Origin: Capsaspora owczarzaki ATCC 30864
Lineage: Eukaryota; Opisthokonta; Filasterea
Length of the DNA stretch: 64,000 bases
Assembly (NCBI RefSeq): GCF_000151315.2
Contig: NW_011887293.1
Location: 1,093,585-1,157,584 of the forward strand
Reading direction: 5' to 3'
Numbering within the stretch: position 1 is the first letter of the stretch; every line of letters starts with the position of its first letter. The notes beneath the pieces were generated by a model, which searched no databases, was not told where the DNA came from, and was given only the letters and a program-made list of their open reading frames with translations. Made by a program: the position numbers and the translations under genes. Below are positions 8,314 through 41,600 of the stretch, in pieces.

Positions 8314-11124
8314 TTACTGGGTCTTCTTCTCGGACGAGGCATCCTCGATGCGCGCCATGCGAAGCGTCTTGAGAATGTTGCGAGCCGCAAGCGAATGATT
8401 GTAGCTCATGCCGTTGAAGGCAAGCGAGGCATCCTTGCAAATGTACGACTTGAGGAGAGGTGCGCCGCCGGGGTGCTGGTCGGCAAAATCGCGGACATCG
8501 TGGACGATGCTGTCAACGACGAGCAGCATGGCACCCTCGGCCACGCGATTGCTCATGTCCTGCATGGTGATGAATGGCAGCGAGTCGATGGCAGGGCCCC
8601 ACTCAATCTTGCTCTTGGCCTCGTTCAGGCGCTTTTGCTGCATCTGTAGCTTGCCCTTCTCAATCACCTCGTCGGGGAAGCGCTTCAGGTTCCACGCCAG
8701 TCCGAGCATCTCCATGGAGGCAATGACCCATTTGCCGGGGTCGTAATGGAGCGCACGAATGCCGTTGCGGTAGTCGTACGGGAATTCGTGGTGGAAGCAG
8801 TGGTAGCCCTCGCCGAAAGTGAGCAGCGAGACAAAGTACGAGTCACGGGGCGAGCGTTGGTCGGAATAGGTGGCATCGCCCCAGAAGTGAGCGAGACTGT
8901 TGATAAAGAAGGTGCATTGCTGCAGGAAGACGGTGCGACCGACGCCGGCGATCAGGAAACCGCCCATCCAATCACCCCAGCCAAAACCTGCAATGAGGGT
9001 AGGCAGGACCAGACCAGTGAGCATGGCCAGCAAGGCAAAGTAGCGGTGCTGGAACTGGAGCCACGAAATCTTTTGCAGGTCGGAAATGTCGCTGAACGTG
9101 TGGCGCGTCTTGTTCTTGAACAGCAACCAGCCCATGTGCGCGTACCAGAAGCCGCGATTGACGTTGTAAGGGTCGCGGTCAGTGTCCGTGTAGCGGTGGT
9201 GTGCGCGGTGGTCGCTGCACCACTCGAAAACAGAGCCTTCAAAGCTCGAAGTGCCCATGACCGTGAGAATCATCTTGGGAATGGTTGCCGCATCGTAGGA
9301 GCGGTGGGAGAAGAGGCGATGGTAGCCAGCAGTGATGCCGATGCCGCCGAGCTGGTACAGGACAAAGCCAAGAACGAACGTCTTCAGGTGCCAGTCGCAA
9401 GTGGCGAGGCCGTAAATGGACAGCAGCGGGGTGACGGTCAGCCAAGTGGCCGTGACCCAGTTGATGCGCGAAATGAGGGAGGCTTGCTTGTCGTCCGCAG
9501 GGGCCTTGATGGGCTCGGACGGAGCGTCAAGGGGCGAGGTGACGGCAACATCGTTGGCGTGCGTCTCGTTGAGGTCGGCGTCCGCAACGCTAACAGGCGA
9601 GCTCGCCGGGGTCACTGGCTCAAACACGCTCGACACGGCAGGGGTCGGTCCAAACACATCGCTGCCAAAAAAGTAGTCGAAAAAGCGAAGACGCCAGCTG
9701 TCGATGCGCAGGTTCTTGTCGGCAGCTGCCGAGCGGACGGAGGCCAGCCACTGCGAAATTTCGTGGACGGCAGACTCTGGCACCTGCTCTAGACGAGCAA
9801 TCAGCCTATGGGCACAAGATTTTGCGGTGGAAGCGATGAGTTGAAGTATGAGCGAGAGTGGCGGAAGGCGAGAAACCCCCCCCCCCACACACACACACAC
9901 ACGCAAAAAGTCAACAAAACACTTACGACTTGTACTGTTCGGCACGCTCCTGAAGGAAGCGAATCTCGACAGACATGGCGAGACGCACGCGAATGGACGA
10001 GGACATCCAGAGGTGGTAGACGAGGAATGGACCGACCCAGAACTTGAGCAGACCCCAGTAGCCGACCAGGTAGACCATGACCGGGAAGAAGACCGCGGCA
10101 AAGGCAAAGAGGATGACGTGGTTGATGACAAAGTAGTACCACTGGTCACGGGTGAAGACGATCGCCGAGCCAATCCAGTCGACAAAGCTGGACAAGTACC
10201 ATCCGTACCAAAGCGAGCCAACGCGCTCGACAGCGGCATCGACGGCGTGGATGGCGGTGGTCTTGGAGTCGGCGATGGCCTGGGCGACCAGGCGACGGCG
10301 GTGCTTGAGGCTCTCGAACGAAATCAGGACGGGAAGCAGCGCGATGGTGCCGACAACGCGGTTGATGAGCTTGCTGCTGGTGAGCGAGTCGTCCGAGCAG
10401 GCAGCGGCCACCGAGAACAGGCCGTACAGGGCGGTGCCGTACACGGCCCACCACAGCGGCAGCATAAACCACGGCAAGCCATAGTAAAACGCAGCGACAC
10501 AGGCGCCGATCAGTGCGGTGGCCGTGAACAGGCGCGTGAATCGGTTGAGGTCTTGTCTGGCGCTCTGTTGGGATACATCCAATGAGCACATGATTTCGAG
10601 GTCAGTTAGAGCGATCGTGATAGTGATAGTTAGTGATAGGGCTTGCATAAGATGAAGCCAAAAAAGCCACAAGACCAGCTCCAAAACGAGAATCAGCCGT
10701 TCGTTCATTGGCTTTTCCTGCACTCGTGGGATCAAACGCCGCACTTCCAACATGAAAATGCTGACGATGCTGATGATAGGTGATGATGGTGATCACAACT
10801 CCAATGCCAACAATCAGCACAGCACTTTTTTTGGATGAGAAAGTGAGAGCGTAGCAGATGTCATTGATGATTGCAATTGCCCGTTGGTTGAAGCATGTGC
10901 TCGAGTGCATTGAGCGTTGGACGTAGAGTGGAGAATGGAACAGAGTGGCGATTGGAACAGAGTGCTGCATTCCTCAAACCAAATACTGTTGCAAAAAGAG
11001 GGGGGGGGGATGACGCGTTTACCGTGGTAGGGATGAGGGTGAGCAGCGTCTTGAGCGAGTCGGCGTCGCGCGAACTCTGCCTCGACAGCGGCACTGCAGC
11101 GTCCATCGTCGCAGCAGCCGTCAT
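8314..11124 (-). CDS. Delta-9 acyl-CoA desaturase-cytochrome b5 with an N-terminal desaturase-like domain lacking His boxes
   Basis: Three exons on the minus strand: 11124-11023, 10564-9927, 9805-8314; 743 residues. The central part is an acyl-CoA delta-9 desaturase with all three histidine boxes: HRLFSH (409-414), HRAHH (446-450) and HCFHH (582-586, in GEGYHCFHHEFPYDY). The C-terminus (about 650-735) is a cytochrome b5 domain with HPGG (His691) and a second haem-ligand candidate His717. This layout is known from fungal Ole1-type enzymes, which desaturate stearoyl- or palmitoyl-CoA in the ER. Residues 35-245 are an extra hydrophobic domain that lines up with the front half of plant FAD2-type desaturases but has no histidine box (see finding). 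Start MTAAATMD is the first ATG in a short exon; the first intron is about 460 nt. It converges with DDX52 and diverges from the gene at 11904. Confidence 0.9.
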
Positions 11125-20109: not shown

Positions 20110-23100
20110 TCAACGGGTGGTCGAGGAACCATCAGCACTACTGTGAGACACATGAGCTGAAGATGACAAGGGCGCTGAGGGCGTGGCGGCAGCTGACGGA
20201 CTGGCAATCAGACGCCGGGCCAGCTGCCTCAATGGAGCGACGGCATCCACCTGGGACGGGAAGTAGGTGAGGAAGATACGAAGTCCATCCACCCATTTGG
20301 CAAGGTGAGGGGGCCATCGACGTCCGCTGGCGCCGTGAGTCAGCGCGCATGGGCCCAGTGCAGTAAACACCTCTTGATCGAGCAACAGACTGAACAGCAG
20401 CGTTGCGAGCTGGAACAAGAAGTGAATCGAGAAGCTATTCAGGCCAGTGAAGACGAGCTCGTCCACAATGTACACGTAATCGAGGAGAAGTTGCTCTTCC
20501 AGCGACTCGTGCAAAAGCTGGAGCTGGAACTGGTCCAGAGAAGTGAAGCTGGGACGTGGGGATGTGCCAGTCCGAGACTTGTTCAACGCGCTGGTGCCGG
20601 AGGAAGGCACATTCATGGACGTGGCAAGGTTGCGGGACATTTGAGCGGTCGCGCGGTCGGACGTGGTGCTCACGTCGGTTTCACAAAGATGCAGAATGGG
20701 CCGAAGCTGCGAGTTGAATGCTGCAACAAACCGGACCACGTGCTCTTCCAGGCTCGAGTACAGGTGCGAGTTGCGAGGACCCGGTGCTCGATGGAACTGG
20801 GAAAAGTGACCGAATGCCAAACGCAGGGAAATGATGTACTTTTCCGTGGAGCGGCGCCGATTGTAGATGGTGATGTGTTCATACAAGTACTTTTCCTAGT
20901 GTTGGGAAGAATTGGCAGCAAGGAAGAAACAAACAAGAAGCACAGGAGTGAGTTGCAAGGAATCGCATCTGAAAAACAGTTGTGTCAAAAATGCACGTAC
21001 GGCCATGATCTGCCGAAGATTGGCGCGGATGGTGTCCAGCTTCAACGTGATACAGAGCATGTAAAGCGAGTTGGACTCGAGCGAATGCATCAAGACACGA
21101 TTCATGGGAACGGCCGCGGACTCGTTGCGGAGCGACACATCAAAATACATGGTGTCGTTGCGAATGATACAGCTGTTGAACACAAACGAAAATTCCGAGG
21201 ATGAGCGCAGAATCAACACCAACATTGAACAGTGAATGGAAATGAGAGGATGGCAGCAAAAATCACACCAGAAAATCACACAAAAATCACACCCAAAAAC
21301 CGTACCCAACTGCAGAAGAGGCACGATTCTCCAAAATGAGACTCGTTGTCGAAGGATCGATGGCAAAGGCATCACTGCCACCGGCGGTGTTGATTCGGCC
21401 CTTGAAGAAGCAGCTGCGGTCAGGCATGTAGAACGCAGGGTGTCGCATCATGGCCTGAACCGTCACGACCCGCTGGAAGTTTTTGATCAGCCGGCAGTTG
21501 ATGGCTGCGCGAAACACACAATTGAACAAATGAGTGCACCCAAATCAAACGCAAACACAAAAAAGACGCAAAATTACAAGTCAAGGTCAGCCGAGACAGA
21601 CGCTGCATAACAACAACGACGAGCATCTTACAAATTTCAATTTGACGCCAGATGCCTTCGTTGAAACTTGCAGAAGAAGGATCGACAGTCTGACGCGATT
21701 GCGGGAAGAGATGCACAAAGACGGTCACGAAACTTTGCGGATCGACGGTAACGGTTTTGCACAGCTTTGGTGACAAGCGAGCGAGTGATAAGACCAGCTC
21801 TGTGGGGTCATCAGAGGGCAAATTCGACGACAGCAGGAACTCGAGCGGGAGGGCCGAGCGATTTTGGATGATAAAGGAGCGTGACATGTACGTGTGGCCG
21901 TAGAACACATCGCCGAGGTTGATGACCGCAGGACCGTTATCCAATCCCTCGACAGTGATGGTAAACAGAGCGTCAGGAGACAAATGAAGAAGCGAGCTAT
22001 TGGGCAAGGACGACTGGGCAGAAGCTGACCCAGACAACGACGTGGAATTTGCTGGCGCGCCTGGATCGTTAGCGGCGAGAGCGATGCCGAACGCTGAAAG
22101 AAGCGTGTTTGGCGTCGAAACGTCTTCTAACGATGGTATCGAGCCATGCAACAAGATGGGGGAGGCAACATCATCGTTGTTGTGGGGTACACTCGCTGAA
22201 GCCAGAGGATGAGAAAACATGTTCGAGCTGCTGGACACAGCAGGCGTGAGTGCAGTGCTCGTTGTTGATGTTGACATGGTGACTGCCGCCGCTGGGCTGC
22301 CCATGCCGGACGGCAGAGCAGGGAAGAGCACAGCCATCGCACTGGGACCGACAGCAACGACTCCGGACATGCTTGCGCCGGAATATGAGGATGCGGCAGC
22401 TGGGCCTGCGAGGTTGCTGCTGCCCAAACCGCCAGCACCGACTGGGACGGCGCTCGTTGACGACTTTGATTCCAAGCCGGATGCGGTGCCTGCGCCTGGC
22501 TGTACGCTGTTGGCAGAAGCGCCACTGACACCTGGCGCGGCCAGCGCCTTTTGAGCTTTGCCCGTCTGTTGAACCAGGGCAAAGACAACCTCGGCAGTCA
22601 CGCGGATGGTTTTCAAGTCTTGGGTGTTGGTCAAGTTGTCCAGGACGATAAACGTGGTCTGCACTCCAGGCCGCGAGGTCGACACGGTGATGCTGACCGT
22701 GTGCGATGCGTCTTGCGATGTCAAGCGCAACGAGTTGGGAGCCAGGACGCCTTCGACTCGACTAAGGGAGAGCCACTGGCGATCCTCCGCACGAAGCAGC
22801 CGCAGGCGATACTCGACGCGCTCAAACGACAAATTCTCCAGAACAAACTCGCGCTGAACAGACCCACTGTCCCAAGGCAGTTGGCCCAAGTCGAGCTCAA
22901 AGTTTGATGTGAACTGACTGACGTGGGTTTCCATCACTGGAGCACATCGATGGAGCATGATGAAGGTTGCACAAAGCTCCAGAGGATCGCGTCGCGAGTA
23001 AAGCAACTCGACCCCGCTCGCGCGCAAAGGCAGCAGGTCGGCACTTCCTGGTGAGGAAGCCAGCTCGCCGTCCGGGCGCGCGGACTGGTTCAGGGGCATC

Positions 23101-26100
23101 ATCAAGGCAGAGGACGATGACGATCGCGTGTGCTTTCTCGAGTACAGCCGAGACACAAAGGCTCCCGGTGAGAGCGACGTGCCTGCGCCAGAGGACGGCG
23201 AGGTCGAGAGCATTGCGGCACCATCCTCTTCAGCAATCACAGAGTGCACCGACTGTGTGCGCCCTAGAAGGAATGAGTTGGAATCGTCCATCGAATCGCT
23301 GGACATGCCACTGCTGCGTCCTGCCGACGAAGCACGCCGCGTTGGGGCAGATGAACGGTGGTTTATAGGCGAACCGTCGTACGGCTGTTGCTCCTGACCA
23401 CGCTGCTGCCACATGGTCAGCTGGTTGGACAGCACCAAGGGGTGAGATGCCACCAAAAGCGCAGAAGGCTCGGAATGGAAACCTCCAGAACCGCCGAGGG
23501 CAAACAAGGCCGACATGCGCTCGTGCTTGAGCGAGCGGCGTGGTTGGCTTGCCACGTCGGTGGTCGCTCTTGTTGGAGCCACGCCAGGCTCACTCGACCC
23601 AGAGCCAGAGCCGGATCGGTCAAGCAGCGCGAGGCGATTGTTGACGTCGACGTCATCGTCATAGTCGAATGAATGCTGCAACCGAAGGCGAGATGCCACT
23701 GCATCACTGTGGGCCACAATCTCGACTTCAAGGACGGCCGCGAACGACGTGTCAGGATGCACGTCGAGCACTTGCAGCTCAACCACGAATGAGCTCTCAA
23801 TGTCAAAATCATCGCTCAGTCGGACGGTCAACGTCATGGTGGCGCCGGGTGGAATAGCCCCGCTCGATGGCTCCACAAGAAGGAGGTGGTTGGCTTCGGA
23901 ATCCTCAGCGTCGCTCGCAGGGCTGACTGCGCTGTCGCTGCCGTCAAAGGACTGCTGACGTTGATCTGGTTGCTGGTTGACGCCCTTGACGAGAATGCGA
24001 CCCGTCCTGAACAACACGGACGTGTTGACGCAAGGGTTGCGCAGCACAACCGTTTCAATTTGTTTGGCTGGGACCAACATTGGCTGCTGTCGCCGTGGCT
24101 TGCGTGTCTTGTGCTCTTCCCGTCGTGTCCGCCGGTCTAGACCGTGCCGCCGTTGTCGGTTGGAAGTGGAGCCTGTTGGCAGATCGTCATACAAGTCGCT
24201 CACAAATTGCAATGGCTGTCGCTCGTCTCCAAAGTCCTGGTCGGAATCGGAGCCGTTCTCGTCGTCGTGGTCGTCCGAGGATGAATGTCCCTCGGAGGAC
24301 GAGTTGGATTCGTCGGAATAGTCGAGGGGGCGGGCAATAAGCTGGAGCGCGGTGGGCGCTAACAGGAGCGTTTTGCTTGCCGCGAAAGACCCAACAATGC
24401 AGACACTGACGGCGGGAAGCAAATCGATCGCATCCGCATGAACGGATCGGAACTTGAGGAAACCGATGACCAACTCGTTGTCTTGCAACATTGGCATGGC
24501 AAGACCAGCGGATTTACGCTCCACCTCGCAAGCCAATCGAGCTGCGTCCAGCAGAGCGCGAGTCGGCGCGCGGTGACTGGAGCGAGCGGTAGCCCGCACG
24601 CGCATCTCTAAATATTCACCAGTCGCGAGGGAAAATTCACTGACGGTCCGGGTCGATAAGCGGAAGAGGAGCTGCGCATCAAGGCAATCGCGGAGCGGCT
24701 CCAAAAGCTCGCACCAAACGCTAAACTTGACGCTCTCGTCGGACGGCACGCTGTTTTGGACGGAAATCCATTCTTCACAGACGGCCGCATCGGTGACGGC
24801 GGGAATGGCCACAGAGGGGAGCCTCATGGTACGCGGCTCGGTCGCGCTGAGATGCCCGAAATTCAACTCGAAATGCGTGACTTGAGCAACGACGGACAGC
24901 TGCATGGCGTTGTGGGGATTGTTCAAGTTGACGAGCGAGATCGAAAAGTGCTGGGAACCAGCACGCTCTGTGGCGATCAAACGTGGATGGAGCGTTGCCT
25001 CGAATCGGCGAGAGGACTTGGCCGGAATGCATCCGACCCCGTTCGACTTGGTGTCCAAGTCTGCAACAGTAATGCACGAGGAGATTGGCCCACTTCGATA
25101 GTACAACGGAACGGCCGAGAGATTACTCACAACAAAGTAAAAGTCGACCGGTTTCCAAGCATTGCGGTACCCGACAACGCCCAAATGGACGGAGGGCCGT
25201 TCGATACGACCGACGGAAAGCGCAAACTGGCAATGCAGTTCAATGACCTTGACCATCTGCCGTCCAATGCGGTCGGCCGTGGAGGCGTGCGCCGCAGCGG
25301 AATCGAGTGGCAAAGCGGAGGCCATTGGATCGGCCTCTTGAGGAGCCGAGTCTTCAGCAGCAGAGCGCAGGGCTCCGGGCGTCTGTGGCCCACTCGCGTC
25401 CAGTCCCACTCGCTCGAGCAGCAAGATGCCATAGTACTCGACCGTCTCGCCCTCGAGAATGCGATCCCACTTGTTGCGGCTCAGTTCGAGAGGCGGTGGA
25501 TAGGTCACCTTCAGAGGCAGGGCAGAAAGCCCGTCAAGCGTGAACGTGCGCCCGCACGGACGCACGTCCGTCTGACCCAGCGCATTGGCTGCCACACCTT
25601 GCAGCTGCTGGAGGTGTGGAAGGGCATCCTCGTCACTGGACGTCAGCTTTCCAAAGTCCGTGGTGACTTGCAAATTCAAATCCGTCAACGGCCGCAAGCG
25701 GTATGCGTCCGGCTGCGAGCTCAGCAGCATGCAGGTCTGGAATCGATGGACAGTCCGCGCAGACAACTCGGGCAAGTCCGTCGAGATGTGGTGTTGCACC
25801 GTCCACGGGGTTTGGTTGGACATGCCGCGCGTGAGGCCAACAGCGTCCTCGGGACAAATGTACACATTGCCAAAGTCGAGCAGCTGCACGCCGTGGTCGC
25901 CAACAGGCAAGTCCGTGTCCACAAGCCCTTCGTCCACGAAAAAGCGAACGACAATCTCCAACTCACGCGAAGGATGGTGACGATTGACAACGCGGAGTCG
26001 CTCTTGGTAAAAGCCAAACGAGTCGCAGCGGCACTCGAGCAGAACCGACTGCTGCGCGGCAGCAGGAAGGAGTCCAGCAAGGTTGCTCGAGCTCGCAGAG

Positions 26101-29100
26101 CCAGTTGCAGAGTAACCAACGCCTGCAGGCGCGAGGACTCCCTGCACGGGGGTAACGGTCATGTTGTTCGGCGCAACAATCTCGTAGCTCAGGGGAAGGT
26201 GCGTGGAAACGTTGCTGAGCACAAATGTGCCGGAGAGCACGGTGCCCAGTTCCGATGCGACGCCCAAGTTGAGGAGATTTTGCGACGTTCTGGCAACGCT
26301 TTGGCCCACAACAGCGCGCAGCTTGACGACAGATTCGACCACAAGGACCAGGCTGGCTGCTGGCGATGCGGAAGCTGCTCCGGGCAGTTGAATCGCAGTT
26401 GGTGTTTGAGGGACGCTTCCGCCAGAAGGCGTGCGCTCCAGAGCGCTGTGCGGGCGTTCGCCGCGTTGGGTGTACTCGAAGGCTTTGACTTTCACGCCTC
26501 CAATGAGCTCGCGACAAGCGCCTTGCTCCCGGCCCTGTTCGCTGAGCTGAGGTTGGATGGCAACGTGGACAACAACCGTGCCCTCTGCTGCACACGGCAC
26601 ATCCTCTGCCGGGATGGTCGCGGCAGCATCGACGAAAAAGAAAATCTGCTTGGCCAGGTTGGATGAGAATTGCAAGACCAGCGGCTTGGACGACAAATTT
26701 TGAACGGTGAGCGGCAAAACCTTGGAAAAGCGCTGAGATCGGTCCACGTAGCAGAGACCACAATCAAACACGAGGTCGTTGTCCGAGCTGACAAGCGAAG
26801 CTGGGGTGCTCGATGCGGGATTGGCAGTCTCGGCGACGGTACCTCCTGCGAGAGTGCTCAGCTCGGGGAAGCGAAGATACTGGGGACGGCGACCAGTCAC
26901 GTTCACTGTGAGGATGGACTCGGTCTTGGAGTGAATGTTGCGAACGATCACAACATGGCGCTGACGACCTGCAATCTGGGGTCGGAAGGTGAAAGAGATG
27001 ACGCGTTGTTCCCCAGGTGCAATGGAGCCATTCAGAGTGCTAAAGCGGAACCCGGAAGGGCCGACCGCTGTGGGCATATTCGAGACTGCCGAACCACCAG
27101 TGGATGAAGGTGGGACGCTATAGCTGTTTGAGGCCGCTACCAGAGGAGGCAACGCAAATCCGCCAGCGCTTCCTGTGACGCCACCCACGCTTCCAGCAAT
27201 GCCACTTGCAAGCCCTGGTGACGCGGCGGCCGCACTTGTCGCAATGGCGCTCGCAATCGCAGCGGCACTCGAGGCTGGGGGTGAAGTTGGGACAAGTTGT
27301 CCGAACGACGTCAAAAACAGGGGAGAAGGTCCGATTGGGGATGCCAGGGCCGAGGCAGGCAACGACCAAGCTGACGGGGTGGCTGAGGCCGACATGGTAA
27401 AGTGCCCAGACGACGGCGCAATCGCGGAAGCGGTGTAATCGCGTCGCTCCAAAATGACAAAGACAACTTCCGTCATGCCCGTATTTGTGATGGTGAAGGA
27501 CGACTGCGTGGGACAGTTCACGTCAACTTCGCCAAGGGAGATTTCTGTCGGGGAAAGCACAAGCACGTCGCCGGTACCTAAAGCCGACGGAGTGAGCGTG
27601 AACGGCTCTTGCCCCAAACTGTCTGCTGCAGGAACAGCGCTGGTGAGGGCATTCAGCGGGGTTGTGTTCGCTTGCGCGTGTGGGGAGCTGCCAGGCGTGG
27701 AGGCCAGCTGCGGAGAGATTGGAGAAGGGCCTGGGGACATTGCGTCCTTTTGGGCCGAAACACCGCCCGCGGGCGACGCCGAAATGGATGACGATTTCGA
27801 CGATGAAGCGGTGGTGCCGGCGTCGTAGAGGGAAGCGCGGGAATCCAACGGATCACGCTCTGACAAACCAGACATGCTGCGCGCTGCCAGGGGCTGCGAC
27901 GACGACACGCCAGAGCCGGCGTCTGTTGGTTTCACAGCGTGCGAGCTACTCGCATACTCGAGCGGAGAGCTGGGAGCAGAAACATCGAGAGCGATTGTGG
28001 CGGTTCGGCGGATGACTGCCGCTCGCTGGGTGAAAATGGCCAACGTGGAACAAGCGCTCGCCTTGATGGATACTTCCTTGTACACGTCGGCATTCCGCTG
28101 CTCGTGGACGAGCAAGCTTGACGACACGTCCACAAACGTGACAGGCGAGGACGCGGAAGCATCGCGCCGCTGCTCCACACGAAAGTACACAAGCACCCGC
28201 TGAACTCGTCCAGGCTCGACCACAAAAATCAACTCGTTTTCAACGACCCGCGGTTTCAACGAATGAGCAGGGCCCGTGGAAGGAGTAACAGAGACTGACC
28301 GAGAAGCGGAAGATTGGTGCCGCGGCAGCGTTCCCGAATCGGTCGTGGTGTCGTCCTCGTCGTCCGTCAAGACGTCAGAGGCAGAGGCGTTGTCGTCCTC
28401 GTGATTGCCGCCGATGGATGACTGCGTTGAGAGCGGCGGATGGTCCCCAAACTTGAGCTTTTCGAGTTTACTCGTCAGTTTTTTCACCTTGACAGTGTTT
28501 TTCTTGGTCGCAGCAATCTTGATCTTTTGCTCAATCTGTTCGATTTGCTCCTCGGTCTCCTTGGTGAACCTGATACCGCCAGACGAAAGGTCCAATTCAA
28601 ACCAAACGCGAGACGTGAACGCGGAGGATGGAACCAAAGCAGCAGGGGCCGCGGCATTACTATCATCCGCCGGTTGGTGCACGACCTGTTGCGTTCGAGA
28701 CGAATCATAGGAGATCTTGAACGTGCGCAGTTTGGTCGACGTGTTGGTCACGATGACCTCATGAGCCTGAGAAAGCAGATTCAACATGACCGCGCCAAAG
28801 TCAATGCGCCGCGTCTTGAGTGAGAATGTCGGGGCTCGCTTGACGTTCGCCTTGAATTGCAGCACCACAAAATTGGCCGGATCTTGAACGTTCTCGATGG
28901 TCACCGGCTCATCAAATCGACCTGCCATCGTGGGGCGGAAGACAAAGTTCACATCTCGACTGCCAAACGGCACAATCACGCCCAAACGGCCTTCGCTGAA
29001 GCCCAAGTCGCTCGACGCAACCGACCCATTTCGCTGGATGCGGTAGAGCAAGGGGACTGAAGCGCCGTTCAGAATGTGCAGGGAACGGGCTCGCTGCTCG

Positions 29101-32100
29101 TTCCGCATCAGGGAGCCAAAGTTGATGTGCTTTTGTGTGACGTGGATGGTCGATCGACACAGCTTTGCGTGCGTCGGGATTTCACGAACAGGCAACGGGC
29201 GACCATCAATGCGCAGGCTCAAGCTGTCGTATGCTTCATTCGCGGTGGCTCCAAGATTCGCGAGCTGGTGATGAGCAGCTGCCGCCGAAGAAGACTGCGC
29301 TGCTGCAGCGGAACTGCCCGGAGAAGCCTTTTCCGCACTTCCGCCGGTTTCGTAAATGCCAGAATACGTCTCGATAAGGGCGCTAGGCTGACGGAAGGAG
29401 GTCAAGACACGAGTGGTGTCTGCACGAACCAAGCGAATGAAAATCTTTTCCTCGACGTTTTTGAGTTTGCCAGTCACTTTTGCGACAAGAGAGGGCGAGG
29501 TCGGCATGAAGATGACAAAGACACGCACGCGAGACTCTGGGGCAATGTCGAGAAACGAGCAGCGAACCAAACGGCGATCATGCACGGCCTTTTCCAGCTC
29601 GCGACGCAGTGCAAACTGCTTGCGGATGTATTCCTCCTCGAGAGAAGGGTTGGTGAAGGTTCCAGCCATGGTTGCACGTTCTTCAAAGTCTTTCGCCAGG
29701 TCATCAAGCGTGCGAGTGGCCGGCATGGCACCAAAGGTCGAGGGTGCGGTGGACGCAGGTGTAGACGACATGAAGCTTGCGGCCTCCACCTCGGAGACAG
29801 CACTCGAATCAGGCAACAGACCTCCATGAGCAGATCCCCCTGTCGCTGATGACGTTGATGCTGCTGATGCTGCTGCTGCTGCGCCTGTTGCTGCGCTGCT
29901 CGCGGCTCGAGACGGAAGGGCGGAGAAGGCAGAGTGTGTCCGGGCAGTGGTGCCAGCGCTTGATTCACCGGGTGGGGCGGTCGACCCAACAGCGTCAGCG
30001 AGAGCGGCAAGCCGTCGTTGGAGTAGCTGCGCGTCGTCGGCGGTAGACAGATTCTTGGTACTCGAGCTCTTGCCGGCGCTCAATCGTCCAGACTCTTCTT
30101 CATCAGCAAAATTGTCGTCCGTGTCCCCGGCTCGCTCATGCAGCCATGTTCGAGGCGAGATTGTCCCGGCGTCCTGGTACTTGCGAATAGCGGCGATGGG
30201 AGCCGCCAAATCAAGGTACTGTGCAATGGGCGTAACAGAAGGTTCGGATGCTGTGGTGGCGATGGCCGACAAGGGAGTGGGCCGGCTCAGCCGCGTCGAG
30301 TGCAAATCGATCGTCGAATCGAGCAGGGCCAGACGATGTTCTTCGAAAAAGAGCTGCCAGGCAGGGTCGCTGCCAGAAATTGTAGCAGATGCTTTCAAAG
30401 GATACCCAATCTCGGCGTCTCGAGGTGGCGGACGGAATGAGGAGCGCTGGCTTGCCGAACCACGCCGCAAACCAAGCACAGTCGCATTTCCATCCAAAGC
30501 CATTGCTGTTGCCGTGGATGGTAGCGTTTGAGAAGCATCCAACGGTGTCGGTTGCGGTGAAGTAGTAGTCGCATTGCTCAATTCCAGGCCTGTTGAGTGA
30601 GCTTGCTGGGCGGGATGGGACTGGGGTTGAGGAGAAAGGAGCGTTGACGTGTGTTGGTGCTGCTGTTGCTGCTGCTGTTGTTGCTGCTGTTGTTGCTGTT
30701 GCTGCTGTGTGAAGGTTGTTGTTGCTGTTGCTGTTGCTGCTGTTGCTGCTGCTGTTGCTGTTGCGACGCTTGCTGAGAAGGCTGAGACGAAAAACCGCGG
30801 TCTAGTTTGCTCGAGAACGCGCGGCGCGCCTCCACCCGCTCAAGAAACTGCTCCTTCTTTTCAGACTGCGGCTTTTGGGCAAGAACGGTGCCAACAGGAA
30901 CCTTGCGACCTTGGGTGTTGGCCTCCGAGGAGGCGGCGGCGGCTGCGGCTGCCACCTCAATGGACGGTGCGGGAATGTGGAAGGACGGGGTAAATGATGC
31001 CGCCAGTCCGCTCGCCACAGGTTGGGGAAGCGATGCCGGAATGTACGCCGCCATGTCTCCAGGGCAGGTCGATGTGAGGTGGAGGGTCACTGGCTTGTCT
31101 GTGATATTTCGAATCACCATGACGCGAAGGCCGGGGCTGTTGACCACCACATTCTCAAAGTGGATGGCGCCCTTCGGGAATCCAGTCTGCACAGTGTAGA
31201 AGAGCGAGTGGAAGGTAACGCCGTGCTGATCAACGTTATTGGAGGCAATGCTCAGGACTTGGTTGTCTTCACGGTTGCAAAGATTGGACACGGTGATCTG
31301 TTTGCGGTACTCTGGATTGACCTTCCGGGGACAGATGGCCACTCGCAAGTCCTGGACCTGCCGAGGAGCAATCACAATGACGTCCGTGCGACATGTGATA
31401 ATCTTGCTCTGATACCGGACTTGAATGCGCGCCGGCAAATCAGACAAGTTGGTTATTTGCACATCGACCATCTGAGCAGTTCCAACATCCGAATCGCCAA
31501 AGTTGATTGAGCTTCGCGAGAGCTTGATGCGTGACTGACACACGCGGGATCGGCAATGCAGCGTCCGCCGTTCAAGCTCCACGTCGTTGGCATCGAGACC
31601 ACGGAGCAGCAACCTAAAAGTGCGTCGCGTCAGCCGCGTTGAGGCGGCTGGAGGATTTGCGGGAATGGCGGTGGTACTTGCGTCCAAACCGGCCGGGGCT
31701 CCGGAGCTCGAGGTGACAGTATCCGCACCCGTGGGTTGCCCTGATGCGTTGTTTGAAGCATTGCTGCCACTATTAGTGACTGTGGTGCTGTTGTTGCTCA
31801 TGTTGCCGGTACTAGTATTGGTGTTGGTGCTGTTGTTGCCAGTGTTGCTGCCGCTGCTGTTGCTGCCACTGTTGCTATTGCTGGCATCCCCATCGCCGTC
31901 TCCCGTTGTTGTTGTTGTGGCAACCTCGACCGTTGTTGGGATGTACCGCAAGGCAACGTGTTGGTGACGACCGGGTGGAATGTTGCACTCTTCAATGCGC
32001 TGGCTCTCTTCGCGATTGCCAGACAGCAGCTGAAGCAAAAGCTGGGACAAGTGTTGTCGACGATGCCGTTGGGCGACCGTGGTCGCAGAGCTCAGCGCAG

Positions 32101-34411
32101 GAAGCGGGTCGCGGACGAGGGCGTTTTGCTGTTGCTGCGACATGAGGTTGATGGCCAGCACCACATCTTGCTCGGAAATGTCTGCAGGGGGCGTGAACAA
32201 GTGCGCAGAGATTTCCTTGGAAAGGCAGCTACGAAAGTCAACATCCATGCTTGTGTCGGTGCTGTTGCGCAAAGTGACAATGCGCATGCAGGGCATGGCC
32301 GTGTAACAATCGCCAAAATCCAAATTGGAATTGCCGAGAATTTCCAAGCTCGTCTCGCGACTGCTCAGGGTGGTGTGCGTGTGCAGAGCAATGCTTGCGG
32401 TATTGCTGGAGTCCAGTGCATTCTCGAGCAGGATGACAAAATCGGCCTGGCCTGCTTGCCGCGGCTTGAAGGCGACGCGCACGCGACACTGCGAAAATGA
32501 CAACAGTGTCGCTTGTTGCAATGGTAGGCCCGTTTCGTACTCGGTGCACTCGACAAGGAAGCCACTGGCAAGCTGCAAGGACGCCGGGGCTGGTTGCTGC
32601 TCGTCGCCGAGTGAGGAGGAGCCCGTGTCAGAGCGCACACGAGAACCCATGCCCGCGTTTTGGGTCGCGGTCGATGTGGGCTCAACCAAAGTCTTGCCGA
32701 GCGCGGTTTGGCCATCCCTGTTGAGTTGCTCGGACGATTGCGATGCACTCAAGTTATCAGACGATGTGGAAGCCGAGAGAGTCGATCCCTCCGTGCTGTC
32801 GCCGCCGTTGTTCGTGCTATTGTTGTGGCTATTGCTGCCGATCGCACTGCTGCTGCTGGTGGTGGCTTTGCTGAGCGAATGGTCAGCATTGGCACTCGCG
32901 CCCTCGAGAGCGGGCACACCAGGATGCCACATGACACTTTCGCCTCGCTCGGTCGAAACGGTCACAAAGAAGGTCACGGGAATGTCAGAGCGATTCCACA
33001 CAGTAAACTCCTTGACATAGGCCCCGCCCACAACGCAGTCGTCGAACGCGAGCTCGCGGTCGGTCAGATCGATGCGAAAGACCGACTTGCACACATGAGC
33101 ACGAAACCGGACTGTGAGTTGTCGAGGCACTGTATCCGACTGAAGATTGACGGGAGCCCCCGTCACGTCGCTGTTGAGACCAACGATAGGCAATGGCGGA
33201 TGTGTCGATGCGTGCGAGGACGACGACGACCCAGAAATGCTGGTTGGCGATGGCGGCACGGAGGGCTCTGGAGAAATCAGGTCGGGCAACAGCAGACTGC
33301 TGGTGAAGAGCAACTTGCCCGAGATATCAAACGACTTGTATGCCTCGAGGTTGATGCTATCGCGATCGCTGTCCGCGACCGCAGCACTACTGGACGCCTC
33401 GCCGCGACGCGCCTCTGGTTGGAACGCCAGCACGAGCCGCCTTGATTCAAACGGCGACAGCACGACTTGATCGACAATGTCGACATGGTTGAACAGGACG
33501 TTGCATTCGGTCACTGGCTTGGTCGACCCGTCCTGCAGCAGATTCTCATTGTTGGATTGAAAGTGGATTTGCTTGCCCAGCGTTGAAGCGAGGCGGACCA
33601 TCACGGGCATTGCGACCAGGCTCGTCACAGTGAATGTCCGCAGCGTGTGCATCTCGCTCAGCGTCACATTGTCCAGCACCAATCTCTGCGACGACGACGA
33701 CGACGACGCCGGCTGCTGCTGGAGCGATGCAGGCGGCGTAGTGACAGCGCCCGCGAACGGCAGTCCAGCCCCGACGGCGCCCGTGGTCACCGACGAGGTC
33801 GAGCTCGACGACGAGGACATGGCCATGGCAGCAGCAGCGGCGGCAGCAGCAGCGGCGGCGGCGGCTGAAGCCGGGTCGAACGAGACTGAGATGAGTGGCG
33901 CGAGTGAAGCGTCGACCGCGTCTGCAGCGTCCGCACCGCCGCCACCAGCACTAGCAACACTGCCCATAGACATGGACGGATTCAAGTAGTGCCGCGTGGT
34001 GCCGCCGCCGCCGCCGCCGCTGCTGGACGCCGAGGCTGCTGACTCTGGCTCGAACGAGTGCAAGAAGCGCCGCCGAGTCGACGCGATCGCTGCAGTGGTC
34101 GTGCCACCATGTCCAGCAGCAGCAGCATTAACATTGGCAGTCGCAGTAGCAGTACCAGCAACGGCGACGGGCGAGCTGGCTGCAAACGACGACGGTGGGT
34201 ACTGCTTGGTTGGAGTGCTTGGCTGCTGACCGCCTCTGCTACTATGATGATGGTGATGGTGGTGGTGTTGGTGGTGGTTATTGTGGTGACTATGGTGATT
34301 ATGGTGGTTGTGAGTGTGGTGATGGGCGTGTGGATGGAACGGCTGCTTGGTTGGGGTTGTCGGCGGACCACCTCCTCCGCCGCCGCCACCTCCACCTGCA
34401 GAATCGCTCAT
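20110..34411 (-). CDS. Giant ASH/PapD-like repeat protein (about 4,645 residues)
   Basis: Exons on the minus strand: 34411-21632, 21504-21306, 21172-21001 and 20895-20110. The first exon is 12.8 kb with one frame break near 30706-30718 in a poly-Gln tract; summed length is 13,937 nt, so one missing base would restore 4,646 codons. The N-terminus has a Gly run, a long His/Asn-rich run and Ser/Ala-rich linkers. At least twelve segments share the ASH/MSP pattern of a short strand with FG or LG, then a strand and N-x-S/T near a second strand: NLDFGDCYTAMP, SINFGDSDVGTA, HINFGSLMRNE, RIDFGAVML, EISLGEVDVN, LNLGVASELG, LLDFGNVYI, SVHLGVVGY, ELDLGQLPWD, VINLGDVFYGH. The last 700 residues lose the repeats and look alpha-helical. 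Such domains scaffold centrosomal, ciliary or membrane-contact complexes; no specific orthologue is claimed. No membrane helix seen. Confidence 0.8.
30655..30780 (-). repeat. Two CAG/CAA (poly-Gln) tracts flanking a frame break
   Basis: On the minus strand two imperfect CAG/CAA runs are separated by a 12-base interruption at 30706-30718. Before it the giant ASH gene reads Gln; after it the same frame reads Ser/Asn while the neighbouring frame continues Gln and leads into the 3,000-codon downstream frame. Confidence 0.85.
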
Positions 34412-34801
34412 AGTGAAACGATAACGATGGGAGAAAAGAAAAGAAGAAGAAAAAAAAGAATGAATGAACGAACGAAACGAAACACAGAGAGGTGAACTAC
34501 GAGTCGAGTTGTTGGGTTTTGAAATTTCAGCCTTCTGAGCACCTGTGGAGCAACTTCTGAGCAACTGTGGAGCTGTTGTGTGGTGCAACAAGCTCCGAGT
34601 ATCACAGGCCTTGCATGCGGAAACAACTTGTGGCAATTGTGTGGTGCAACAAGCTCCGAGTATCACAGGCCTTGCATGCGGAAACAACTTGTGGCAAAAA
34701 TAACAAAGTACTTGGAGCTGAAACGACAAACACAAAAGCAATCTACACACAAAACGGAGAAGGGCCAAACCAGTTGGTAGCTCGGAACATAGCAACACGC
34801 T
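34412..34801. other. Leader/promoter region of the giant ASH gene
   Basis: 390 bases between the start of the ASH-repeat gene and the stop of the PH-domain gene, both on the minus strand. An in-frame open extension upstream of the chosen ATG is hydrophobic and covers a tandem duplication, so I treat it as untranslated. Nothing else is recognised. Confidence 0.5.
34577..34698 (+). repeat. Perfect 61-bp tandem duplication
   Basis: Two adjacent copies with period 61 (TGGTGCAACAAGCTCCGAG at 34581 and again at 34642), identical over the full unit as far as I can read, 166-290 bases upstream of the ASH-gene ATG. Confidence 0.9.
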
Positions 34802-36272: not shown

Positions 36273-38652
36273 CTAGTCATTGAGCATGAGCGTCCACATG
36301 AGGGTGGAAATGACATTGACGACGCTGGCGGCATGCTGCAACTCGCTCGCGCGGGCGTCGTCGGAAACAGGCTCCTCGCGATGGACAAAGGTGATGGAGA
36401 ACTTGCGCGCCACACGATCGTGTTGGAGGTGCAGCAAGACGTCGGCAAATGCCGGATTCAGGAGCACGACGTGGCGAACAGACGTGCCGCTTCCAGGCAC
36501 TGGATTGCTGGAGAGCGTGACTGCGCCAGACGTCGACCCTGGAGCATACGACGTGGTCACATAGGACCCAGACAAGCCCATCGTGTTGGACATGACAGAT
36601 GAAGGCGGCGCCAGAGGTGATGCAAGCCCTGCGGACGTCACGGACGTTGCCAGCGGGGAGGTCAGGCCGGTGGCTACCTCGACCGTCGCGGTCGTGGCCG
36701 TTGGGATAGGGACGACTGGTGTTTTGCGGCCAAATCCGAGCGACGCAAAAAAGCCGCCGCTGCTGCTACCGGCACCGCCACTGGGGCCACTGCTAGACAT
36801 GCGCCGCTGCGGCGGGACAGCCAACTGGGCAGCAGCAGCCACAGACGACGACAACATGCCTTCTGCCGTGCGAGTAGACTCGGGCATTGGAGTCACGGGC
36901 ACCAAACTCAGATTGACGCTGGACGCAGGGACGGGCGGAGAGATGGACGTGTCGGTGAGAATGTCTCGCACGTCCTTGCCGAATCTGGCGACGACGGAAG
37001 AAAGCACCTTCTCCCACGGAACAGGCATGCAAAGCACGCTCGCAACGGTCGGGTCGGTGAGTGCAAAGTCCTCGCGCTGGCTCAGCTGCATCAGCCGCAT
37101 AAACTCGGTCGCCGTGAGGCCTGCCTTGTTGGGCTTTTCGGTGCCTTGACGAAGAGCCTCCCACGCAGTGTCGCGGCGAATGGTGCAGACGGCCCTTGGT
37201 GGATGAGGACATCGAGACGCAAAAGCGCCGAGCGAACAACATCTTGAATGCGGGGTACAAGCGGAGAGAAGAGCGGGTTGTTGGCTGGCAGGGAGGGGCT
37301 GCCAGTCGGGCGCGCCGTCGAGAATATGGGGGACGGCGCGCGATCGTCGGCTGCACCAGCGGTGGAGCGGTTGAGCAGGGCTCCTAACACAGCCGCTGCA
37401 GCCGCCGTGGATGGCGCCGACGCTTGGGCAGCCTGCCAGTTCAAAATCGGGAACGTGGTGCGGACATTGGTCGCCAGGAGAACGTAATTCAGAGTAAAGC
37501 TACGCGCATCAACATCCGTAAACGACCCTGTGATCGGGCTAACGTCTAACGCCCTCGGAGTCACGCGATTGGCCACCGTCGACAGTCTCAATTCCGCCGG
37601 AGCAGTGGCTGCAAGTCTGCCATCCTCTGGGAATACGAGCAGCAAGTAGTCGTAGTCGCCTTGCGAAGAAAACTCGATCGCGCCTGTTGGACGACGCGAG
37701 TCGGCCGCGGACGGTCTCCCTCCTGGAGTCAAAGCTTGCGACTGCAGCTCCCCAAGACCGAGGTCGGGTCTGCGCGAGAGCAAAAAGATGGCGTCTGGAG
37801 AAGACGAGGACGACGACGACGACGGCACAGCTCCATTCATATCGGCAATAAGAGATAGCTCGTCAAGCGAGTAAAAGCCGTAATGCGACGCACGACGGCT
37901 AATAAACGCAAAGAACTCGTCGGGCGAGGAGATGTTCGGGTCGAGCGCCACAGCACCCTTGTAAATCCGGTTCCGGGCAAAGGTGGACGGCATATTCAGT
38001 GCCATAAAGTCTTGGAGCAAATCCAAGAGATGGAGCGAAGGATAGCGCAACGTGCTGTCCACGATAAATTGCTGGAAATAGCGCAGGTGGAAATCGTAAG
38101 TGAACGAGTTGATGTGCAGGTAATCCTTGAGACGGGCGCACTCTTCGGTGAATTTTCGCGATTGCTCCACAGCTGCCTTTCCCGAAAGGGAGACGACATA
38201 GGCAGACGTGGAACTGGAGCTGCTCGCCAGCTTGTTGGCTTGCTGCGATGAGGTCTGCGAGGCATACATGGCCTGTTGCATGCTGTCGCTGAAAGTGGAA
38301 GTCATCGGAGCAAATGGCTGCTGGATAGCCCGCATGCGGGATCCTTCCGTGGCGTACATGTTGATGCAGACAAAGACATCTCGGAACGATACCTTGACGA
38401 GCACCATGCCGCCAGAATACACTTTTTGCAAAAAGGTACTCGAGGTCAAAAGTGCGAGAGGGTTTTGTGCGACTGCGGCGGACAGAAGCTCGCTGCTCGT
38501 CCGAACCTGAGACGTGCTGCCACTAGAAGAGCCGGACGAGAGTGGTGGGTTGGTCGCAGTGACGGGTGGTTGTGCCGAGCGCGATGTCTGTCGTCGGCTG
38601 CTCAACCCAATCACCAGCGACGAACTGCTGCTCGAGTTCGACGCAGAAGGCG

Positions 38653-38689
<37 letters not shown>

Positions 38690-41600
38690 CGACGATCCGG
38701 CAGGCGAAGAGGCAGCTGGGCTCTGAGAGTGCGCGTGTTGCACTGGCGAAGCGTACGAAGTTGCATCACCGCTGGAAGCATTGTCGACAACCCCAATCAG
38801 GGAAAATCCAAGTGACTCCAAATAAGACACATACTGCTTGATAAACCGCGCAAGCATTTCCAAGTACCATCGCTGGTCAGCCTCTGTAGCCGCAAGAGCG
38901 GCCAATTCGTTCGAGGCAAACGAAGAAACAGACAGAGCTTGCTGAGCACTCGCGCCGCTTTTGCCCTCAAAGACACCGTCAGCGCTTCGTTGGCGCGCAA
39001 CAGGCGTCGAACCGGTCGGTCCGGATTGGGCTGTAGGCAGACTTGACGTTGGTGGAGCAGTAGACAATGCGCTTGGTCCTGTCGGCGCAAGCGGGCGACC
39101 ATCGTCTTGGATCAGGGTTTTGCGTCGCGAGCTGAACAGCAAAGGTTTGCGGCAAAAATGGACGAGCCGCGAGGCACGTTTGATGATGCGCACATTGCTC
39201 GCCAGAGCTTTGCGCTGATCCTCGGCGGACGCCTGCGCAGATTGACTGCTTGGGCCGGCACCAGACGACGAAGAACTCGGTGGTCCAGAGCGTTCGCGTC
39301 GAATCCAGCGCTGGTAGAGCTCACGCATGCGTGTGTGTCGCTGGAGTTGTCTGTTCAATGCAGCTGACATTTCGAGGAACTGGAAGCCGTGGCGCGTCAA
39401 TGGGTCGGAAACAGTGCTCACGTTGGTGAGATGCATCGGATGGGTCGGTACAATGCTCTTCAGCACGAGCTCAAACGACGCCATGGCTGCCAGACGGCGT
39501 CGCTGGCGCTGCTCGGCATCATCGGAGGAGGGCGTCGAGGTCGTCGAGGAGGCTGCTGTAGGTGCTTGACCGCCAGGTCCAGAGCGACGTTGCAAGTGCG
39601 CGGGCCGGAATCCCGGAGTAACTGACCCTGTGGGTTGTGAGCCACCAGAGGACGCACCCGAATTGTTTGTGCCGCTGCTGGGCGACGCAGCTGTAGTCGA
39701 AGGGGAGGAAGTGGACATGGAGCCCGACGAGGACGAGTTGAGCACTGTATCCGCGGCTCGGCGCGTAGGCATTGTACTGCTCATGAGGATTTCAACGTTT
39801 TCGAGCGTGAGACGAGCGTTGCTTCCAGGAATGACGGAAGTCGCCGAGCCGCCGCTGCTGCTCAGACCGGATCCAGACCCAGACGCAGCAACATTGGTTG
39901 ATTGGCCTTGTGAGCCGGACGGCTCGGTGGTCGCAAGCGTCGTCGACAGCTCGAGCGGCGGGGCGCTGGCTGAGCAGTGGGCAAACAAGCCCATCTTTTG
40001 ATGCAAAATATGCGAGAGGGTGTGGGAGCGGATGTGATGCCACGAGGCAAGACGCAGGAAGGCGCTTGAGAAACGCTCGCGCGCGCTGGGTGTCCAATTG
40101 TACAAGAAGATGGTCACAGACTGAGGACGAATGGAAATGTGCAAGAAGCTTGTGCGGTGCTGAGCGTACACGGCGTGGAATTGCTCGGAAAGGAGAGCAG
40201 GCACCTCCTCGCTGGTTGTGACCGTTGGGACGGGCACGTCCGCTCCGGGAACCTGCAATGATGATGGAGCGTGGGAACGAACGCTGGCAACGGAAATCAT
40301 ACTCGCCCCAGCGGCAACTCGACCGCCGGGGACCACGCGGTGCTGTTGGACGGAGCGAATGTGAGCAGACGCCGTGCTTCCCACCACCACATAGTGGAAA
40401 TCGCGGGAGCTTCGAGGTGCGTCGTGCTGGCGCAGCGATCCAAAGCGAGACTCCACGAGTGGAACATTGTCGCGCACGTGGGTGGGTGGTGCAGACTGCA
40501 GCCCAGAATCGATCGTCGTGGGAATGGCTATGATACCGGCAGCCGATGAGCGGAAGGACGCCGAGCTGGAGAAGGAAGATGCTGCGGTGTGATGTCCAGC
40601 AGAGGACGAGACCGCCGCAGCCGTCGAAAGCATAACGCTGCCAGAGCGCCGAGATTCCAACGGTTGGTATGCAATAAACGACTGTCGGCGACTGACGGGA
40701 CCTGACGCCGATGGCTCGTCGTCCATCACTTGGACTCCGCTGCCCGCAAGAGATGTTAGACCATACAATTGTGGGCACAAGTCCGGGCGCATGTCGGCAA
40801 TGCTGGCAAGGAGCTCGGACAGCGCGCGATCGACNNNNNNNNNNNNNNNNNNNNNNNNNNNNNNNNNNNNNNNNNNNNNNNNNNNNNNNNNNNNNNNNNN
40901 NNNNNNNNNNNNNNNNNNNNNNNNNNNNNNNNNNNNNNNNNNNNNNNNNNNNNNNNNNNNNNNNNNNNNNNNNNAAGTGGATGTAGAAGTGGAAGCACCA
41001 TCGGTACCCAACGCTTCGCCCACAATGGTCATCGGGGTGGATGAGGGTCGAACGAGCATGCGCTGCTCCAAGATAAAGTCGCACAGGGTTTGGTTGAGCG
41101 AAGTGGTAATGCGATCAAGCAGCGCGTCCGGGTTGACCGCTCCACGAGTGAAGAGCCTAAACGACAGGACAAGCCCTGGCGCGGTTGGTGGTGGATGTTG
41201 CGCTTGGTTGGAATCGACGCTCGCCTCGGACGCAGAAGGGAAAGTGTAGCGATCGCAATGCAACAGCGACACATCCATTGTATGAATGTCAAACGTCGTA
41301 TCTGCAAACGGAGCGCCAATGGGGACGGAGCGAAGCGCCTCGCCGGAAACCTTGTCCAGCGGCTGCAAGTAGATGCAGGCCATTCCTTGACCGACCGTTG
41401 TGGCGAGCGGAGTTGGGGTGGCCGCCGCGCCCAGGCAGTTGTACAAGAACACAAAATCGCTCAAGTTGAATGCAGCCGCGGTCGGATCGGGATTGCTCGC
41501 AGCCAAGCTGACGCTGTCGGTGGAGTGCTGGGCACCTCCGCCCGCGCTGACTGTGTCGATGCTGATAGTAGCACCTGTGGCTGCCTGACTAGACGCCGAA

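Follow-up and report, generated by a model that had tools for sequence, protein, structure and literature searches.

A predicted fusion of a DesA/FAD6-type pseudo-desaturase module with a delta-9 desaturase and cytochrome b5 in Capsaspora owczarzaki

The predicted gene and its domains

The locus considered here lies on the minus strand of a stretch of 64,000 nucleotides from Capsaspora owczarzaki ATCC 30864 (contig NW_011887293.1, positions 1,093,585 to 1,157,584), which is called the window below and is numbered from its first letter. Splice prediction gives a gene of three exons at 11124..8314 that encodes 743 amino acids. Very probably, it joins a DesA/FAD6-type pseudo-desaturase module, whose metal-binding boxes are lost, to a delta-9 desaturase and a cytochrome b5. 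Exon 1 (11023..11124) has 34 codons, with the ATG at 11124 or 11106, and is followed by intron 1 (10565..11022; 458 bases, GTAAAC..CAACAG). Exon 2 (9927..10564) carries the module as residues 35-247, is flanked by CAACAG before and GTAAGT after, and is found exactly where a first-pass annotation, made from the letters alone, had placed a desaturase-like domain. Intron 2 (9806..9926; 121 bases, GTAAGT..CCATAG) contains a GT-repeat and then a run of G. Exon 3 (8314..9805) encodes a linker, the delta-9 desaturase, the cytochrome b5, and the stop codon. The exon 2 frame is plainly coding: the GC content at its third codon positions is 0.83, against 0.56 and 0.43 in the other frames, and its codon choice follows that of exon 3 beyond 2,000 synonymous randomisations.

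The C-terminal part is predicted to be an Ole1/SCD-type acyl-CoA delta-9 desaturase. Residues 367-624 (8674..9447) match the acyl-CoA desaturases 4zyo (E 3.5e-52) and 4ymk (E 1.1e-49) in the PDB, and the delta-9 part matches the Pfam family PF00487 FA_desaturase at 2.1e-16. The motifs GYHRLFSH, DHRAHH, NSLAH, and GYHCFHH are intact, and their HRLFSH, HRAHH, NSLAH, and HCFHH positions correspond to the ligand positions of SCD. Residues 660-732 (8350..8568) form a cytochrome b5 domain (PF00173, 3.3e-11) with HPGG and both haem histidines, H691 and H717. The downstream half is thus as normal as the first-pass annotation had described it, with three boxes and a cytochrome b5, and fungal Ole1 likewise consists of a delta-9 desaturase with a C-terminal cytochrome b5. 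The same genome contains another Ole1-type delta-9 gene, L078, at G000:C12:1017500-1024500 (match near C12:1018781-1019410, minus strand), which also has a b5-like HPGG stretch. It is 43% identical to the delta-9 part in the window over 339 aligned positions, with an intron read through, and makes a natural counterpart for comparison.

The module as a desaturase homologue

A FAD6-like query was used to collect 58 cyanobacterial loci, of which two short ones were dropped, and a DesA profile hidden Markov model (HMM) was built from the other 56. This HMM gives residues 1-247 a score of 96.1 bits (E 1e-31; best domain 92.8 bits, E 1.1e-30 for one target), and aligns residues 5-239 with model positions 12-259 of 356. 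The remainder of the 743-residue protein scores 0.1 bits. The maxima of 1,000 shuffles of each kind are 13.8 bits for residue shuffles, 35.6 for block shuffles, and 12.8 for local shuffles, and the best score outside the locus among the 601 window frames of at least 60 residues is 3.1 bits. In a profile-to-profile comparison by hhalign, the module aligns with DesA at a probability of 99.4 (E 6e-22, 229 columns), whereas the value for an alignment that combines the delta-9 domain of this protein with other delta-9 types is 29% (E 6e-4). Sequence comparison therefore confirms, far beyond chance and far above all 3,000 shuffles, that the module is a desaturase-type domain. The first-pass annotation had proposed this and had named the absence of any desaturase profile match as its refutation; both profile methods do match.

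A search of the whole genome with a single cyanobacterial DesA returns the module locus first (E 8.4e-16, 32% identity), followed by L004 (5.2e-10) and by weaker matches at three other positions. With the DesA HMM, the desaturase L004, whose boxes are intact, scores 59.6 bits and L006 scores 27.3 bits, both below the box-less module. Between L004 and the module, blastp finds no match at E 10. Curated libraries contribute little: for the 222-residue frame around exon 2, no Pfam family matches at E 10, PF00487 included, and NCBIfam and PHROGs give nothing meaningful for the module. The weak matches murD (0.058), surf_exc_IncI1 (0.24), and phrog_12203 (0.087) were taken as chance. A second copy of the module is absent from the genome (27.5 Mb, 29 contigs) at E 10, and nine pattern stretches in IMG/VR yielded no confirmed relative.

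The homology already begins in exon 1. The exon 1-exon 2 junction is in phase 0, and the end of exon 1, LKTLLTLIPTT, runs on into exon 2 in collinearity with the DesA N-terminal motif lkdviktlpkevf. Since this motif spans the junction, the predicted splice is supported; the spliced residues 1-247 score the 96.1 bits given above, against 85.8 for the unspliced frame of 289 residues. The domain extent annotated at first, limited to exon 2, is correct for that exon and too short by exon 1 (11124..11023).

Subfamily of the module

The module was compared by blastp with 37 desaturase rows, comprising 27 from four cyanobacterial genomes, 6 of the DesA set, and 4 from this genome or gene. Matches at E 10 were obtained for 19 rows, namely 10 DesA at 65-89 bits, 4 DesB at 44-53 bits, and 5 others below 25 bits; the other 18 gave no match at that threshold. 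Against the 56 DesA sequences, the best score is 95.1 bits at 30% identity, with E down to 1e-25. The genome's own FAD2-type delta-12-like desaturase gene is L008 (G000:C1:1460577-1464062), in which 1,012 locus bases are N, and the readable half of its protein gives 16.5 bits (E 45). The first-pass annotation had aligned the module with FAD2-type enzymes of plants. Scores of 65-89 bits for the DesA rows and 95.1 for the best DesA, against 16.5 for half of a single FAD2-type protein, place the module in DesA/FAD6 rather than FAD2. Nor is the line-up free of gaps, as had been claimed: across the matched span the module lacks about 13 residues relative to DesA, most of them after box 2.

A tree of 33 rows places the module within the DesA/DesB group (100/99). 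Its branch is very long, with 6.4 changes per column, and is joined to FADL, the PDB protein described below; this joining is likely a long-branch artefact. The tree row L089, which is named DesB, is actually a neighbouring DesA frame. Plastid FAD6 letters give 85.5 bits to the module. Judged by these similarities, the module belongs by descent to the cyanobacterial/plastid omega-6 type, DesA/FAD6, and its source may be either a cyanobacterium or a plastid gene.

Loss of the di-iron site

Invariant positions were taken from an alignment of 38 DesA sequences; these came from a check of 42 of the 58 loci, 4 of which were set aside because the matched range contained stops or lost its frame. There are 65 DesA-invariant columns in the module, and it keeps 29 of the 55 non-histidines and 1 of the 10 histidines (Fisher p 0.016). 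The best-kept stretches, PWF..LP..GTA..G.F and FP..G.WG..KFW..P.L.YH.WMS, are in and around the helices.

Box 1, which reads (G/A)HDCGHR in DesA, is represented by AAACSDD at residues 87-93 (10388..10408), so that HDCGH has become AACSD with both histidines replaced, by A and D. Box 2, LHDxHH in DesA, corresponds to KHRRRL at residues 121-126 (10289..10306), where the aligner places a gap beside the motif and the placement is uncertain. The coordinates of both were computed from the residue numbers and agree with the sequence, and both motifs are those read at first. At most one box 2 histidine is left; even with H122 taken as the first, the other two are gone. Beyond helix 4, R and L stand in place of the histidine pair. 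The earlier statement that every iron-ligand histidine had gone therefore holds for nearly all of them and is slightly too strong, since box 2 may retain its first histidine as H122, which is also how the first-pass alignment places it. Moreover, box 3 is not changed by mutation but absent together with the cytosolic cap: the region beyond helix 4 is missing, and the linker contains no remnant of the DesA cap (score -1.3, with 137 of 500 shuffles equally good). H218, the only invariant histidine to survive, sits in helix 4, ten residues ahead of the lost pair, and probably does not act as a ligand. However H122 and H218 are counted, the residues present indicate that a full metal site cannot form.

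Continuity of the two desaturase parts

Intron 2 contains no ATG, and the first in-frame methionine of exon 3 is residue 425, within the delta-9 core, so that there is no start codon between the modules. Splicing exon 1 straight to exon 3 breaks the frame. For these reasons the fusion is the simplest source of the delta-9 enzyme, and it looks obligate in the predicted gene; a transcript initiating within exon 2, or a non-ATG start, may also occur. The earlier description of a pseudo-enzyme module joined to a delta-9 desaturase with intact boxes and to a cytochrome b5 agrees with this, as one predicted reading frame carries both and the ligand positions downstream are intact. Retention of intron 2 would yield the pseudo-desaturase module alone, because its donor creates an in-frame TAA.

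A broken-box DesA-type protein in the PDB

A phmmer search of the PDB with the 222-residue frame gives FADL (8xks chain K) as its sole match, at E 0.075 and 16 bits in two collinear pieces. Residues 1-298 find it at E 0.21, and with a query of 718 residues it is not among the matches listed. With the DesA profile, a single PDB sequence passes E 0.01, and this is again FADL (E 1.5e-45). FADL is named fatty acid desaturase domain-containing and is present in the entries 8xks_K and 8xqw_M, with an identical sequence in 8xqx. By the PDB titles, it is a subunit of the Orf2971-FtsHi or Ycf2-FtsHi motor complex, and Chlamydomonas reinhardtii is given in the title of 8xqw. We take the role of this motor to be in chloroplast protein import. 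The boxes of FADL are broken, with HECAMM, HLHHL, and MLPQA in the place of the third. As FADL with its broken boxes is found within a complex, a DesA-type fold can survive as a subunit even when its metal site is broken.

Proposed role and its alternatives

The favoured reading, to which we give a probability of roughly 45%, is that the module is a non-catalytic scaffold, a built-in pseudo-partner of the delta-9 core. The gene would produce a single membrane protein of 743 residues, in which the Ole1/SCD-type acyl-CoA delta-9 desaturase is the catalytic part and receives electrons from its own C-terminal cytochrome b5. The first ~240 residues very probably derive from a DesA/FAD6-type acyl-lipid desaturase that has kept its membrane core, lost its di-iron site, and had the cytosolic cap with the third histidine box removed. 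By analogy with the DesA family, the module would have four transmembrane helices and both ends in the cytosol, and its addition would therefore leave the orientation of the delta-9 core unchanged. It might pack against that core in the place that another desaturase takes in a dimer, and might fix the membrane position, stability, or assembly of the enzyme, with all chemistry in the C-terminal half. The first-pass annotation had put forward membrane placement, dimer formation, or substrate handover as possible roles.

Several observations weigh against the module being such a scaffold. A structure model built with the DesA rows as its alignment has a mean predicted local distance difference test score (pLDDT) of 74.7 and a predicted template modelling score (pTM) of 0.64, and is biased to the DesA fold. 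The sole convincing PDB fold match of this biased model is FADL, and no SCD-type chain is among the fold matches listed. The second refutation proposed at first, an unrelated fold, was thus checked and a desaturase fold found, though in a model that its alignment biases. The single-sequence model is uninformative (pTM 0.31; best Foldseek E 3.3, no match). In the DesA-aligned model, DSSP assigns one helix to residues 139-211, where two membrane helices are expected, and plain hydropathy gives three hydrophobic regions in the module against four expected. Among the ten invariant histidine columns, three fall in an alignment gap. The module is known from one genome only, so it may also be a decaying relic that is not under selection. 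In addition, the best score for a DesA-like frame of at least 25 residues in the 7,001 bases examined at L078 is 0.2 bits, meaning none was found; delta-9 desaturases can therefore do without the module.

The main rival, which we regard as rather unlikely, is that the gene once encoded a bifunctional delta-9/omega-6 enzyme, and that its omega-6 half is a dead relic, retained only because the start codon and reading frame come from exons 1 and 2. The substrate of DesA-type enzymes is what delta-9 desaturation produces, which makes the fusion partner plausible as a former consecutive step, and the FAD2-like omega-6-type gene L008 could make the old activity redundant. Moreover, 26 of the 55 invariant non-histidine positions are also changed, which counts against a scaffold and fits a relic. 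On the other hand, the codon bias is strong and the frame is intact across 212 codons, the non-histidine invariants outlast the histidine ones, contrary to neutral decay, and the third box region has gone with no detectable remnant.

Less probable again is a role in lipid binding or handover, in which the dead DesA fold would hold an acyl-lipid or sense the membrane state, and would pass substrate to the delta-9 core or regulate it. A lipid-facing groove would be expected in and around the helices, which is where conservation of the module is highest. However, DesA-type enzymes act on glycerolipid-bound chains and Ole1-type enzymes on acyl-CoA, so that direct transfer is chemically awkward, and the cytosolic cap that closes the substrate site of a desaturase is missing.

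An error in the gene model is improbable; in that case, a separate gene with its stop at the in-frame TAA at 9923 would encode the N-terminal module, and the delta-9 enzyme would start elsewhere. It is true that the exon 2 frame meets this TAA right where the intron 2 donor lies. However, a GTAA donor in the phase of exon 2 always reads TAA, so a stop here is expected; the missing ATG in intron 2, the lack of an in-frame methionine in exon 3 before residue 425, and the frame break between exons 1 and 3 also speak against two genes. Finally, the view that the desaturase likeness is mere shared hydrophobicity of membrane helices, which could appeal to the lack of a Pfam FA_desaturase match and the best PDB phmmer E of 0.075, is refuted by the shuffle controls, among them block shuffles, which preserve local composition, by the window frames outside the locus, and by the blastp values.

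With the module read as a scaffold, a broader evolutionary account may be offered, which remains doubtful. A cyanobacterial/plastid-type DesA/FAD6, acquired by a non-photosynthetic relative of animals or fungi and stripped of its iron site and cap, might now serve an Ole1-type delta-9 desaturase as its obligate structural half. The result would be a pseudo-heterodimer in a single chain, whose dead member influences what the living one does. The genome, probably that of a single-celled organism, has T-box domains and no light-harvesting protein at E 0.001, which is the one test of photosynthesis made, and is therefore likely to be that of a non-photosynthetic opisthokont.

Other features of the window and genome

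Two long open frames of 3,139 and 1,407 amino acids lie at 21423-34801 on the minus strand and show weak matches to HYDIN/CFAP65/CFAP74-like immunoglobulin domains; by these matches, they possibly encode flagellar proteins. No single stretch passes alone, and the Pfam family concerned has one match genome-wide and is also present in 4 of 14 control genomes, prokaryotes included, so the evidence for flagella is weak. A stop-free frame of 4,885 codons occupies 37094-51748 on the minus strand, and another frame within it, at 39795-41114, shows an N stretch. Elsewhere in the genome, T-box domains occur in three genes or gene parts clustered at G000:C9:400151-434694 and in one at C15:301383-302830.

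Significance and comparison with known systems

Pseudo-enzymes are well known among soluble families; to our knowledge, few are known among membrane di-iron desaturases. One paper on moth desaturases (PMC2584044) reportedly uses the term "catalytically inactive desaturase". A pseudo-desaturase fused to an active desaturase was not found in searches of an open-access paper library directed at inactive or fused desaturase domains, which is weak evidence since subscription papers are mostly outside it. The first-pass remark that no protein of this layout is described is uncontradicted there, and needs one qualification, since the PDB already contains FADL, an unfused protein of DesA type whose boxes are broken. 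The component parts are of known kinds, and it is the fusion to an active desaturase that has not been met. The presence of a pseudo-desaturase and an active desaturase in one chain would make the purpose of desaturase dimers directly testable, and would mean that a cyanobacterial/plastid-type lipid enzyme has been reused as structure in a genome that shows no sign of photosynthesis in the single test applied.

The Ole1 desaturases of fungi and SCD of animals resemble the C-terminal half, as residues 367-624 match with the ligand positions in place and, as in Ole1, with a C-terminal cytochrome b5. In contrast, they lack the N-terminal pseudo-DesA module and the linker of ~110 residues found here. 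FAD2-type delta-12 desaturases of the endoplasmic reticulum have the general desaturase architecture in common with the module, and low sequence similarity to it. FADL is itself of DesA type, with broken histidine boxes. It is longer than the module, keeps the cap region, and has no active desaturase fused to it as far as seen, and its pairwise similarity to the module is 16 bits only. DesA/FAD6 is the best among the subfamilies compared, with 27-33% identity to the 38 cyanobacterial DesA across the aligned module, and the N-terminal motif and the helix 3-4 signature are common to both. Unlike these enzymes, the module has boxes 1 and 2 destroyed and box 3 and the cap absent, sits in a genome without a detected light-harvesting protein, and is fused to another desaturase.
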